Below, piece by piece: positions 41,555 to 63,891 of a stretch of DNA of 64,000 nt. The first letter of the stretch is position 1. Every line of letters begins with the position of its first letter. Source of the stretch: Nitrospiraceae bacterium. Its GTDB lineage: Bacteria > Nitrospirota > Nitrospiria > Nitrospirales > Nitrospiraceae. Below the pieces are notes generated by a model. That model was not told the DNA's origin and did no database searches. It saw nothing but the letters and a program-made list of their open reading frames with translations. The stretch spans positions 62,001 to 126,000 of the forward strand of contig JAHBWI010000004.1 of the NCBI GenBank assembly GCA_019637075.1, in the 5' to 3' direction. The translations under genes were made by a program, and so were the position numbers.

Positions 41555-41572
41555 CACGAGATACCCTTCACG
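41555..41572 (-). repeat. Dispersed CGTGAAGCGTATCTCGTG-type repeat, copy 1
   Basis: Plus strand reads CACGAGATACCCTTCACG, one mismatch from the 18-bp core that flanks the four-helix-bundle gene. Located between mtgA and the TPR genes, beyond the mtgA stop. Confidence 0.65.
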
Positions 41573-53565: not shown

Positions 53566-53627
53566 GTGAAGCGTCGTTTGTGAAGCGTGGGTCGAGGCGA
53601 GATACGCGCGACGAGATACGCTTCACG
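53566..53627. repeat. Dispersed repeat, copy 2 (palindromic unit)
   Basis: GTGAAGCGT appears twice (53566 and 53580) and ACGAGATACGCTTCACG is at 53611-53627, making an inverted pair between nfeD and the SPFH gene. The same core flanks the four-helix-bundle gene. Confidence 0.7.
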
Positions 53628-53631
53628 TACA

Positions 53632-54066
53632 TTATTCCGGTCTGATCGAGAGCGTCAGGCCGTCGACGTGGTCGACGCGGCTGCGTTGCCCCTTCTGCAA
53701 GGGGACTGCGCTCACGTTGCGGGCGTTCCAGGTACTGCCGCGGAACTCGACCTTGCCCAACGCGCCGGAGGCCAAGTCTTCCAGCACCAACGCGAGTTCG
53801 CCCACCATCGTGTCGACGGGCGCGGCACCCGCTTCATCCTGGTTCATCCAGCGCCGCAACGGACCACGAAAGACGATAAGGGAAACGATGGAGAGGACGG
53901 AGAACAACAGCCATTGCATCCACTCGGCGGCGATGACGTCGAAACCCGCGAGGGCTCCGACGAGCAGGGCCGCCAGTCCGAAGAACAGCATGTAGAAGCC
54001 GCCGGGCGTGATGATTTCCGCTCCCAGCAGAAGAAGCCCCAATAAGAGCCAGAGCCACCAGGTCAT
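53632..54066 (-). CDS. NfeD-family membrane protein
   Basis: A 144-residue NfeD: three or four helices (WWLWLLLGLLLLGAEII, GFYMLFFGLAALLVGALAG) then an OB-like C-terminal domain (VGELALVLEDLASGALGKVEFRGSTWNARN). Partner of the adjacent SPFH protein. GAGGAGGTGCG before the ATG at 54066 sets the start. Confidence 0.9.
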   Translation of the reverse strand: MTWWLWLLLGLLLLGAEIITPGGFYMLFFGLAALLVGALAGFDVIAAEWMQWLLFSVLSIVSLIVFRGPLRRWMNQDEAGAAPVDTMVGELALVLEDLASGALGKVEFRGSTWNARNVSAVPLQKGQRSRVDHVDGLTLSIRPE

Positions 54067-54169
54067 CGCACCTCCTCGGGCGCGCCGCACGCCGCGTGAA
54101 CCGCTTCGGCGGGGGCAAGTCTAAGCGCCTTTCCGTAGAGCGTCAAGGACCGGGCCGCGCGCCGGTTCA

Positions 54170-54198
54170 TTGAACAGCTCTCGGACCGATGGTATAGT
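54170..54198 (+). promoter_or_regulatory. Near-consensus promoter of the CARF gene (leaderless type)
   Basis: TTGAAC at 54170, exactly 17-bp spacer, TATAGT at 54193, then 11 nt to the ATG. No Shine-Dalgarno. It is one of the clearest promoters in the window and faces away from nfeD. Confidence 0.65.
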
Positions 54199-54209
54199 CC
54201 GCGCCAGCC

Positions 54210-55463
54210 ATGGCGACCGATTCACCGGTCAAAGCTTTGCTGATCGCCTTGACGGACGCGCCACCGCCCGCCGTCCATGTGATCAACCGCTTGCAGCCCG
54301 AGCTGCTCTGCTTCTTCGTGCCGGAATCGGCGAAGGCGGGGATCGAAGAGTCGGTCCAGCCGCAGGTGCGGCAGATGCCCAAGCGGTGGGACTGGATCGT
54401 GACGCCGGACGCATCCGACCCGATCGCTTGTCACAGGGCACTGGGCCAGTCGATCCAAGACTTGTTCCGGACTTGGGACGTGCGGCCCGGCGAGGTGGTG
54501 GTGGACCTGACGGGAGCGACTCCGGCCATGGCTGCCGCACTTGGGGCTGCGACGCTGCCTTGGACGTCTCGCACGATCATGCTGGTCGAGGGACAAGACC
54601 CGGATGGCGAGACCCTTCAGATCGACGGGCAGGATCTGCGCTGGATTCAAGGCAATCCTTGGGATGAGGCGGCTGCGGTGGGGCGGCGCGAGGCGGCCGA
54701 ATCTTTCAACCACGGATCGTTCAGGGCGGCCGCCACGGCCTTTCATGGGCTGGAAGCTCGTGTGAGCGGGGGGCAGAAACCGCTTTATCGTGCGCTCGGC
54801 GATCTCGCCATGGGCTACGCACTCTGGGAACAATTTCAGTACCGCCAGGCTTGGGACAAGCTTAAGACGGCGACGAAAGCGCTGGAGATGGCGACGATCT
54901 GGGGCGGCCCGCCCGGACTCAAGAGCCTGTTGCCTGCGATCAAGGCCAACAGTGGGTTTTTGGAAAAGCTCGTGCTCGATCCCGCTGAGGTGAAAGAAGG
55001 TGTGGCCTTGGACCTGCTGGCCCACGCGCACCGACGGGCGCTGGTCGACCATGACGGTGAACGGGCGATGGGGGCGTTGGTCCGCGGATTGGAAGCCTGC
55101 GCCCAACGCCAGCTCTACCGGCAATACAAAATTAAGACCTGGGATGTGCAGTCGGAGCAACTGCCGGAAGCGCTGCGTGAAACCTGCAGGACCTGCTACC
55201 TCGATGACGTGGACGGCAAATACAAACTGCCGCTCCAGAGTCAATTTCGTGCGCTCGCGGGGTTGGGCGACCAGATGGGGCAGGCGTTCCTCCGCGACTG
55301 GCCCAAGATGAAACCGCTGCTCGATGCCGCCAATCATGCCGTGCTCGGCCACGGCTTCGAACCGGTGAAGCTCGAACGCTTCCAGCAACTCCACGACATC
55401 GTCATCAAACTCGTCGGCGTCAACACGAGCTCGCTTCCGGCGTTTCCTGTGCTGAGCCTCTAG
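54210..55463 (+). CDS. Stand-alone CARF-domain protein, TIGR02710/Cas02710-like
   Basis: A 417-residue protein. Residues 1-150 form a Rossmann-type CARF domain whose ligand loop, usually DxTGGTK, reads DLTGATPAM at 99-107. The C-terminal half (ALDLLAHAHRRALVDHDGERAM, LPEALRETCRTCY, LGDQMGQAF) matches the HEPN-like half of the TIGR02710 family. Its terminal RNxxxxxH motif reads AANHAVLGH (Ala374, Asn375, His381): the catalytic Arg is absent. In CRISPR systems such proteins sense cyclic oligoadenylate and cut RNA. No CRISPR or cas gene is nearby. Family assignment is from memory of the motifs. Confidence 0.72.
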   Translation: MATDSPVKALLIALTDAPPPAVHVINRLQPELLCFFVPESAKAGIEESVQPQVRQMPKRWDWIVTPDASDPIACHRALGQSIQDLFRTWDVRPGEVVVDLTGATPAMAAALGAATLPWTSRTIMLVEGQDPDGETLQIDGQDLRWIQGNPWDEAAAVGRREAAESFNHGSFRAAATAFHGLEARVSGGQKPLYRALGDLAMGYALWEQFQYRQAWDKLKTATKALEMATIWGGPPGLKSLLPAIKANSGFLEKLVLDPAEVKEGVALDLLAHAHRRALVDHDGERAMGALVRGLEACAQRQLYRQYKIKTWDVQSEQLPEALRETCRTCYLDDVDGKYKLPLQSQFRALAGLGDQMGQAFLRDWPKMKPLLDAANHAVLGHGFEPVKLERFQQLHDIVIKLVGVNTSSLPAFPVLSL

Positions 55464-55484
55464 GCAGGGGCGTTGTTAGTGAAC

Positions 55485-55502
55485 CGTGAAGCGTATCTCG
55501 TG
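55485..55502 (+). repeat. 18-bp inverted repeat, left arm (dispersed repeat copy 3)
   Basis: CGTGAAGCGTATCTCGTG, directly before the four-helix-bundle start codon. Its exact reverse complement is at 55876-55893. Confidence 0.85.
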
Positions 55503-55859
55503 ATGATGAAGATCAAAAACTTTCGTGATTTGGCTGTCTGGCAGTTGGGGAAAGAGATTGTCCTGCAGGCGTATCGGGTCACCAAAGGGTTTCCGAGGGA
55601 AGAGCTGTATGGGCTGGTATCGCAAATGCGCCGTGCCGCCGTGTCGATTCCCTCCAACGTGGCTGAAGGCCTTAACCGGAAGCACAATCCAGAATTTCGA
55701 CAGGCCCTCTATGTGATACTGGGGTCTTGTGCTGAACTCGAAACTTATGTCGAACTCGCGTACGAGCTGGGTTTCATGACCGTCCGGGACCGAGCGCAGA
55801 TGATAGAGGGCCTCGACCATGAATCGCGGATGCTCCGCAATCTCCTCAAGCACTTGTAA
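55503..55859 (+). CDS. S23-type four-helix-bundle protein (TIGR02436-like)
   Basis: A 118-residue helical protein of the family first found in 23S rRNA intervening sequences: KNFRDLAVWQLGKEIV, MRRAAVSIPSNVAEGLNRKHN and ILGSCAELETYVELAYELG are the signature helices. The role is unknown; relatives include accessory proteins of diversity-generating retroelements. An ATG at 55503 directly follows the repeat and there is no other ribosome binding site (ATG 55506 is also possible). It is bounded by a perfect 18-bp inverted repeat. Confidence 0.85.
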   Translation: MMKIKNFRDLAVWQLGKEIVLQAYRVTKGFPREELYGLVSQMRRAAVSIPSNVAEGLNRKHNPEFRQALYVILGSCAELETYVELAYELGFMTVRDRAQMIEGLDHESRMLRNLLKHL

Positions 55860-55875
55860 GGCATCAGCGTAATCC

Positions 55876-55893
55876 CACGAGATACGCTTCACG
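55876..55893 (-). repeat. 18-bp inverted repeat, right arm (dispersed repeat copy 4)
   Basis: CACGAGATACGCTTCACG, complement of the arm at 55485. It is followed by AACGACGAGATACC, which abuts the ybgC ATG at 55908. Confidence 0.85.
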
Positions 55894-55907
55894 AACGACG
55901 AGATACC

Positions 55908-56309
55908 ATGGAAGTTCGGATTTATTACGAGGACACCGACTGCGGCGGGGTGGTGTATTACGCCAACTATCTGAAGTATTTCGAGCGGGCGCGGACGCAC
56001 TATCTGGAAGAACGCGGCCTATCGGTGGCGGGGTTGCGCGATGCCGGTACGCAGTTCGTGGTCGTCCATGCCGAAGTGGACTACCGGTCGCCCGGCCGCT
56101 ACGGCGAGACCCTGATCGTCGAGACGACGATGCCGGACCTCTCCCAAGCCTCCTTTACGTTTGCGCACGTGCTGCGGGAAAAGGAAAGCCGGCGTGTGGT
56201 GGTCGAGGGTTCGGCCAAGCTGGTGGCGGTGGACGACCAGCTCAAAATCAAACGCCTCGACAAGACCACCCTGGCTGCGTTACAAGGACCTCCACACCGG
56301 AGGAGCTGA
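55908..56309 (+). CDS. ybgC: Acyl-CoA thioesterase YbgC/4-HBT type
   Basis: A 133-residue hot-dog-fold thioesterase. The catalytic Asp lies in YYEDTDCGGVVYYANYLKYFERART, a family hallmark. Acts on acyl-CoA or acyl-ACP in phospholipid or Tol-Pal context in other bacteria; no tol gene is here. Its start codon immediately follows the repeat, with no separate Shine-Dalgarno visible. Confidence 0.9.
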   Translation: MEVRIYYEDTDCGGVVYYANYLKYFERARTHYLEERGLSVAGLRDAGTQFVVVHAEVDYRSPGRYGETLIVETTMPDLSQASFTFAHVLREKESRRVVVEGSAKLVAVDDQLKIKRLDKTTLAALQGPPHRRS

Positions 56310-56428
56310 TGGAAAAACTTCCCACCTGGTTGGCAATCGGCGGCGTCGTGATCGGCTTCATCGTGCTCGCCTGGCTGCTGTTTTCCGACGACCCGAAGGA
56401 TAAGAAGAACAAGAACCAGAACCCGTGA
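56309..56428 (+). CDS. 39-residue single-helix membrane peptide
   Basis: A short gene starting MEKLPTWLAIGGVVIGF, one hydrophobic helix (about residues 7-26), and a Lys/Asn-rich tail. GGAGGAG precedes the ATG, and the ATG overlaps the ybgC stop (TGATG), which argues for a real coupled gene. Function unknown. Confidence 0.7.
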   Translation: MEKLPTWLAIGGVVIGFIVLAWLLFSDDPKDKKNKNQNP

Positions 56429-56429
56429 G

Positions 56430-56744
56430 CTATCGGGCTCGCGCGCCTTGGGAGTCCGAGACTCGATCGCTTTTGACGATCTTGACGATCTGATCGTCGA
56501 GATCCACTTCGATACTGACCACGTCTCCTTTCGCGAGCTTCTCCCGTTCAATCGTCACTGAGTCCGCCATGCGCAGCGTCCAGGTTTGACCTTCTTTCGT
56601 TTTGAACGTGAGGAGCTGGTTGCGCAAGTCCACGTGTTCGACCTGGCTCCTGGAAAAGACCATGGCGGTTTCATAGCTGCGGGCTACGTCGGCCGCGCTG
56701 ATCCAACCGATCAGGGCAACGGCGCTCAGTAGGAATCGTTTCAT
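56430..56744 (-). CDS. Secreted small protein, unknown function
   Basis: A 104-residue protein with a signal peptide (FLLSAVALIGWISAADVARS) and a compact beta-rich domain (LLTFKTKEGQTWTLRMADS, KLAKGDVVSIEVDLDDQIVKIVK) reminiscent of small OB or SH3-like periplasmic proteins. AAGGAGG before the ATG. Ends 1 bp after the membrane peptide on the opposite strand. Confidence 0.75.
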   Translation of the reverse strand: MKRFLLSAVALIGWISAADVARSYETAMVFSRSQVEHVDLRNQLLTFKTKEGQTWTLRMADSVTIEREKLAKGDVVSIEVDLDDQIVKIVKSDRVSDSQGARAR

Positions 56745-56810
56745 GGCAACCTCCTTCCGGCCGGGGGAGCCCGACCTGTGGGATTGAGCTAGGTGACGAC
56801 CCTCAGCCTA

Positions 56811-56825
56811 ATCCCGGCAGCACAG
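56811..56825 (+). repeat. 15-bp direct repeat, copy A
   Basis: ATCCCGGCAGCACAG, repeated exactly at 57078-57092, 267 bp away. Confidence 0.5.
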
Positions 56826-57077
56826 GCAGTCTGTCGCCGAAGGTCGGATTCGGCGGCGGTATCTGCCCCGGTAGCCTGTGGTTCCTTGTGCTACGAAGAA
56901 TTGTCGGCTCCGGCCGGGCGACCCTTCCCGAATTCCCTCCGGGTTGATATAGTGCAGGCTCATCCCACAGCCGAATGGTTCAGGCGGTTCCCCTAACATC
57001 GATGTCCAAGCCGTTGTCGTCCCGCTCTCGATGCTGCGTCGTGCCTCCAGGGTTTGGTCGTTGCTGTGCGACGATTG

Positions 57078-63822: not shown

Positions 63823-63891
63823 CGTCGTTCGTGAAGCGTATCTCGTTCATACGTGGGTTCCGCGAGATACGAAATGCGAACCACGCTTCAC
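63823..63891. repeat. Dispersed repeat, copy 5 (palindromic unit)
   Basis: TCGTCGTTCGTGAAGCGTAT at 63823 continues to a CGAGATAC...CGCTTCAC inverted half at 63861-63891. A 25-nt stretch here equals the reverse complement of copy 4. It lies between the nuclease gene and the gene cut off by the window end. Confidence 0.65.

Follow-up and report, generated by a model that had tools for sequence, protein, structure and literature searches.

The DNA analysed in this study, referred to below as the window, is a stretch of 64,000 nucleotides (G000:C4:62001-126000) from the 4.06-Mb genome of a Nitrospiraceae bacterium (G000, the host genome). Within it, a gene of the S23 four-helix-bundle family is located between a gene encoding a CARF protein and ybgC, and is bracketed by two inverted arms such that the element so delimited (55471-55907) occupies the space from the CARF stop codon (ending at 55463) to the ybgC start codon (55908), with the exception of 7 bp at its left. 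The features of the locus are, in window coordinates:

54210-55463, + strand: upstream neighbour, CARF protein (TIGR02710) with a Csm6-like HEPN domain; used in the empty-site comparison
55471-55502, + strand: upstream arm, read from the sequence as CGTTGTT AGTGAAC CGTGAAG CGTATCT CGTG
55485-55502, + strand: left copy of a perfect 18-bp inverted repeat (exact match), the inner part of the upstream arm
55503-55859, + strand: S23 four-helix-bundle gene (TIGR02436, PF05635), 118 aa, identified by profiles and by a predicted fold like 2gsc, 2rld and Avd (4dwl)
55876-55893, - strand: right copy of the perfect 18-bp inverted repeat (exact match), the inner part of the downstream arm
55876-55907, - strand: downstream arm, read from the sequence as GGTATCT CGTCGTT CGTGAAG CGTATCT CGTG on the - strand and abutting the ybgC start codon
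55908-56309, + strand: downstream neighbour, ybgC, a YbgC/FadM-type acyl-CoA thioesterase; used in the empty-site comparison

The initial annotation of this DNA had reported a perfect 18-bp inverted repeat around a four-helix-bundle gene, and exact matching confirmed both the repeat, CGTGAAGCGTATCTCGTG at 55485-55502 (+) with its exact complement at 55876-55893, and its spacing, as the left copy runs directly up to the ATG at 55503 while the right copy begins 16 bp past the TAA (55857-55859). Each arm extends to 32 bp and consists of four heptamers followed by CGTG, the inner 18 bp being identical between arms, so that the arms of the window element read as tandem 7-nt units. The same core was also correctly said to recur elsewhere in the window, which has five copies in all at up to three mismatches compared to 0.08 expected by chance, and, as had been noted, no flanking target duplication is seen at this copy. 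The position of the lone Csm6-like CARF-HEPN gene (TIGR02710; 54210-55463) beside ybgC is kept in most of the relatives read.

The product of the S23 gene belongs to the family of 23S rRNA-intervening sequence proteins, matching TIGR02436 with 104.8 bits (cut-off 24) and PF05635 with 110.6 bits (cut-off 33.8), and its closest named relatives are found in Nitrospira and other Nitrospirota. The gene is under purifying selection, dN/dS being mostly 0.04-0.29 with one close pair at 0.58, and the invariant or nearly invariant residues of the protein include W13, Q41, R44, S48, N52, E55, G56, S75 and E78. The predicted model (pLDDT 95.5) is a four-helix bundle with a TM score of 0.92 to 2gsc, the S23 structure 2rld being matched as well. 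The next fold matches are to the Avd protein of a Bordetella phage retroelement (4dwl, 8ub7; TM about 0.77-0.78), and a weak match to the bAvd profile was obtained for 20 of 24 S23 members. S23 structures have been available since 2006 and we know of no role for these proteins. Avd binds nucleic acid, and it is on account of this relationship that we infer the same capacity for S23. The S23 protein of Xanthomonas forms a homopentameric ring (PMC4990558).

Inverted arms proved to be a general feature of S23 genes. Eighty loci with S23 relatives were collected from named genomes by similarity to the window protein, and are therefore not a random sample; at most of these loci 7-nt tandem units are present on both sides of the gene in inverted orientation, with units that vary by locus. 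In the 100-bp flanks of 73 S23 genes, sequence identity at lags of 7, 14 and 21 nt amounted to 0.37-0.41, whereas 896 control ORFs taken from those loci gave 0.27-0.29, and no other lag stood out. The upstream flank matched the inverted downstream flank with a score of at least 12 at 67% of S23 genes, as against 2% for control ORFs and 6% when flanks of different loci were paired, while a match in direct orientation was found at 10% of S23 genes. When 7-nt periodicity on both sides was demanded together with an inverted match of at least 14, arms were called at 41 of 65 named S23 loci and at 33 of 111 Nitrospiraceae S23 loci, whereas among 3427 other ORFs eight qualified, including a second S23 gene. 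On the window expectation, the flank-match controls and the other-ORF controls, we rejected the idea that the 18-mer lies where it does by chance. A phylum was assigned for 64 of the named loci, and these are spread over 16 phyla. Arm polarity is also consistent, since, read on the coding strand, 88% of upstream arms are rich in G and 83% of downstream arms rich in C, compared to 49% G-rich among control upstream flanks. Among 124 called loci the unit measures 7 nt in 96, 8 nt in 19, 9 nt in seven and 6 nt in two.

With regard to carriage, no S23 match was found among 50,697 phage records, on which basis phage carriage was dismissed, and the plasmid records that contain S23, 28 out of 72,556, are for the most part cyanobacterial. 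Of ten plasmid copies inspected (nine cyanobacterial), most possess 7-nt arms, one has 8-nt arms and one has none. Three such elements of cyanobacterial plasmids lie inside operons, namely between nrdB and nrdA (L253), cas10 and cmr3 (L256), and cas6 and cas4 (L259). Two further loci deserve description: in Lacihabitans (L078:10359-10490) the heptamers of the downstream arm share the reading frame of the gene that follows, to whose product they would add an N-terminal extension (ITSDQSPTASHQSPVTSDQSP...), and L212 holds a tandem pair of S23 frames with arm units of approximately 9 nt.

The sequence of the unit is associated with the type of S23 protein. Among Nitrospiraceae, S23 proteins at least 60% identical, encoded in different genomes and between unrelated flanks, have in the median 11 arm 7-mers in common, although many of these pairs involve a small number of loci; different S23 types within a single genome share a median of three, which is near the background of two. 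For pairs from different phyla with an identity of 55% or more, the number of shared 7-mers has a median of three and a mean of 5.0, compared to 1-2 for the remainder, the medians being small, and the most striking pair, L075 (Nitrospirota) and L086 (Pseudomonadota), has S23 proteins 70% identical and 29 arm 7-mers in common. As read from these sequences, the unit goes with the S23 subtype and not with the host genome, even across phyla. Unit length also clusters on the S23 tree (10 changes versus 26.8 for shuffled labels, 124 loci), although the link to S23 clade is suggestive only, because only eight changes versus 9.7 remain, with 13 of 200 shuffles as low, when each site cluster is represented by a single locus; we accordingly set aside the view that unit length independently characterises S23 clades.

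Units of this kind are not confined to S23 genes. The 14-base core of the repeat is present, at no more than one mismatch, at 35 places in the host genome, compared to two for a reversed control pattern; since this genome contains only two S23 genes, the 18-mer itself is not gene-specific, and most host arrays have no S23 gene nearby. Examples from the window are:

41555-41572, - strand: dispersed single repeat copy with one mismatch
53597-53627, - strand: dispersed array of units as in the S23 arms, without an S23 gene
63830-63871, + strand: dispersed inverted pair of units as in the S23 arms, without an S23 gene

The second S23 gene of the host (L032, G000:C4:200022-200210) is far diverged from that of the window and, as read by eye, apparently lies between inverted arms of another, GATTTGGTGATCTCGTGATTTG-like unit. 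Pattern searches and 100-kb samples were used for the array census. The 16-base motif GTGAAGCGTATCTCGT occurs in 97 of the 116 Nitrospiraceae genomes that have S23 as against 12 of the 31 that lack it (Fisher p = 2e-6), its copy number correlates with that of S23 in these genomes (Spearman 0.54), and position-fixed 100-kb samples yielded 12 7-nt arrays in 800 kb from S23-bearing versus two in 800 kb from S23-lacking genomes (p = 0.013), the p-values being optimistic because the genomes are related. The initial annotation had considered that the repeat might be genome-wide and bear no relation to S23 genes; it is indeed genome-wide, but the absence of a link is contradicted by the difference between S23-bearing and S23-lacking genomes. 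In a Nitrospirales bacterium (L040:13945-19590), prepilin-like genes are likewise flanked by CGTGAAG/CGTATCT-type heptamer arrays, which enclose no S23 gene there.

The CARF-ybgC gap was read at 30 loci of the host genome and its Nitrospiraceae relatives (CARF being absent from L166), and was found to be empty, scarred, filled by the same S23 gene with the same repeats or filled by another S23 gene with other repeats. Five loci, the host among them, contain a type A S23 gene with CGTGAAG/CGTATCT arms. In ten others the gene is of type B, its product sharing about 33-42% identity with type A, and the arms are TATGGC/TATAGC-like; two loci contain remnants and twelve have a short gap of 6-55 bp. 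All intact S23 copies in this gap carry arms, and the same arrangement conserved without repeats, envisaged initially as an argument against a cassette, was not seen. The decayed elements consist of an S23 gene reduced to 210 bp by an internal deletion in L145 and a 138-bp remnant with arm-like ends in L155. Among the short gaps, apparent arm pieces are present in L146, L148, L154, L161 and L164, which are probably scars, no array is present in L151, L153, L160, L167, L168 and L171, and L150 was placed in neither group. The gap states are scattered on the tree of the flanking proteins (14 changes compared to 14.1 for shuffled labels), and gain, loss or exchange is therefore frequent at this site. 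The motif CCGACG of L167/L168, compared with CGAC at both ends of the element in L159/L165, could reflect either the duplication of a 4-bp target, a feature of insertion sequences and MITEs, or a deletion bounded by microhomologies of 4 bp. The gap states as a whole fit new insertion and homologous recombination of neighbouring genes alike, and the two cannot be separated on the basis of these sequences.

Taken together, the recurrence of arms around S23 in 16 phyla suggests a compact mobile element, and we consider it probable that the window locus is a copy of a widespread and very small selfish element composed of an S23 gene and two inverted, type-matched arms of short tandem repeats. The minimal repeat-bracketed cassette of the initial annotation is thereby well supported and extended to a general arrangement, given the arms in 16 phyla, the empty or exchanged sites and the match between arms and S23 type; what has to be corrected is the nature of the arms, which are heptamer arrays and not one special 18-mer. 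In both the minimum free energy and the centroid fold the arms pair around the ORF as RNA, although the region as a whole is not more stable than shuffled sequences (z = -1.45); an Rfam search of 54000-57000 returned no match, and a known structured RNA at the locus was discarded as a candidate. In the transcript the paired arms would form a stem whose loop contains the ORF, and RNase III may cut this stem, as it does in S23-bearing 23S rRNA intervening sequences (IVSs), which would allow the element to be tolerated between the genes of an operon. The S23 ring, with its Avd fold, may bind its own repeat units as RNA or DNA, and this binding would favour the upkeep or copying of the element by host enzymes, the gene-less dispersed arrays then representing arm-only copies or scars. 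Searches for a reverse transcriptase (RVT_1, PF00078) in the host genome, G004 (eight S23 genes) and G009 (five S23 genes), and for a Y1 transposase (PF01797) in the host genome and G004, gave no match. Movement via a resident reverse transcriptase and RAYT-like movement via a Y1 transposase were both set aside on the results for the host genome and G004, and since the host genome is without either match, neither a resident reverse transcriptase nor a RAYT is needed for the element to be present.

The closest known counterparts are the 23S rRNA IVSs with an S23 ORF of Leptospira and Coxiella (PMC4990558), which likewise place the ORF between terminal inverted repeats and are sporadically distributed. 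The Coxiella IVS has a terminal 28-bp stem, heptamers (GACAGAT) just ahead of its S23 ORF and cutting by RNase III (PMC4990558), its RNA stem enclosing the ORF as predicted here. By analogy, the window element looks to work like these IVSs; however, it is not an rRNA IVS, because it lies outside rRNA, between the protein-coding genes for CARF and YbgC, and its arms are repeat arrays with a unit that varies with S23 type. Heptanucleotide tandem repeats have been described as GGGAATC in Xanthomonas and GGGGAYT in Nostoc (PMC4692102) and as TAACTGA in Beggiatoaceae (PMC4679880), slippage being proposed in both reports, and in a 2018 prokaryotic survey no periodic intergenic repeat was more abundant than tandem heptamers, for whose function its authors saw no clear clue (PMC6344855). 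These resemble the present arrays as dispersed intergenic 7-nt units, partly in inverted pairs, but the window arrays are the arms of a gene cassette; S23 is not mentioned in any of the three papers, and in the open-licence literature searched S23 and tandem repeats appear jointly only in the Coxiella IVS paper (PMC4990558). REP/RAYT systems also combine dispersed intergenic inverted repeats with one protein gene flanked by them, although S23 does not belong to the Y1 transposases, for which the host genome gave no match. Avd of diversity-generating retroelements (4dwl, 8ub7) has a similar fold, and its bAvd profile is matched weakly, but sequence identity is only about 10% and the host genome has no reverse transcriptase match.

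Among other explanations, S23 may insert into, or be captured by, pre-existing heptamer arrays or hairpins, the arms then belonging to the target. Many arrays without S23, some of them close inverted pairs, and the array pieces retained in some short CARF-ybgC gaps would accommodate this, but other short gaps have no array, the same site has received two S23 types with two different units, and S23 genes of the same type share units at unrelated sites, so that we regard this as unlikely. Somewhat less probable still is an element that is not mobile, in which S23 plus arms would serve the CARF-ybgC operon as an inherited regulatory module, providing for example processing or termination hairpins, and would be shuffled among strains by recombination of the neighbouring genes. 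The ability of the arms to pair as RNA agrees with such a role and exchange of flanking genes could yield the scattered states; similar arms nevertheless surround S23 at unrelated sites in 16 phyla and between unrelated plasmid genes, and are rare around other genes.

That the S23 ring acts in an Avd-like manner with a reverse transcriptase and spreads through cDNA is improbable, since the fold of the S23 model and the bAvd profile matches speak for it while no RVT_1 match was obtained in the host genome, G004 or G009, although the enzyme could have been lost or be supplied externally. Least credible of all, and very improbable in our estimation, is that the heptamers are ordinary slippage-prone simple repeats between which S23 has come to lie by chance. 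It is true that heptamer repeats abound in bacterial intergenic DNA, with slippage as a proposed mechanism (PMC4692102, PMC4679880), and the repeat is dispersed in the host genome, yet bilateral inverted arms seldom occur at other ORFs and S23 genes of 16 phyla commonly have them, arms match within and not between loci, and their polarity is fixed. The small selfish element with type-matched arms is therefore the explanation we prefer.

In its broader form, which we put forward more tentatively, S23 would be the partner of heptamer tandem repeats, with each S23 type recognising and spreading its own unit, and the rRNA IVSs would be the rRNA-inserted branch of the same selfish class. S23 arms are a possible source of the unexplained 7-letter repeats of bacterial genomes, and the link between S23 and heptamers opens both problems to experimental test, through the binding of S23 to its own unit and through the growth or movement of arrays. 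If this proposal is true, the rRNA IVSs are one branch of a far larger class of elements residing between ordinary genes, a class that would reach inside CRISPR and ribonucleotide reductase operons.
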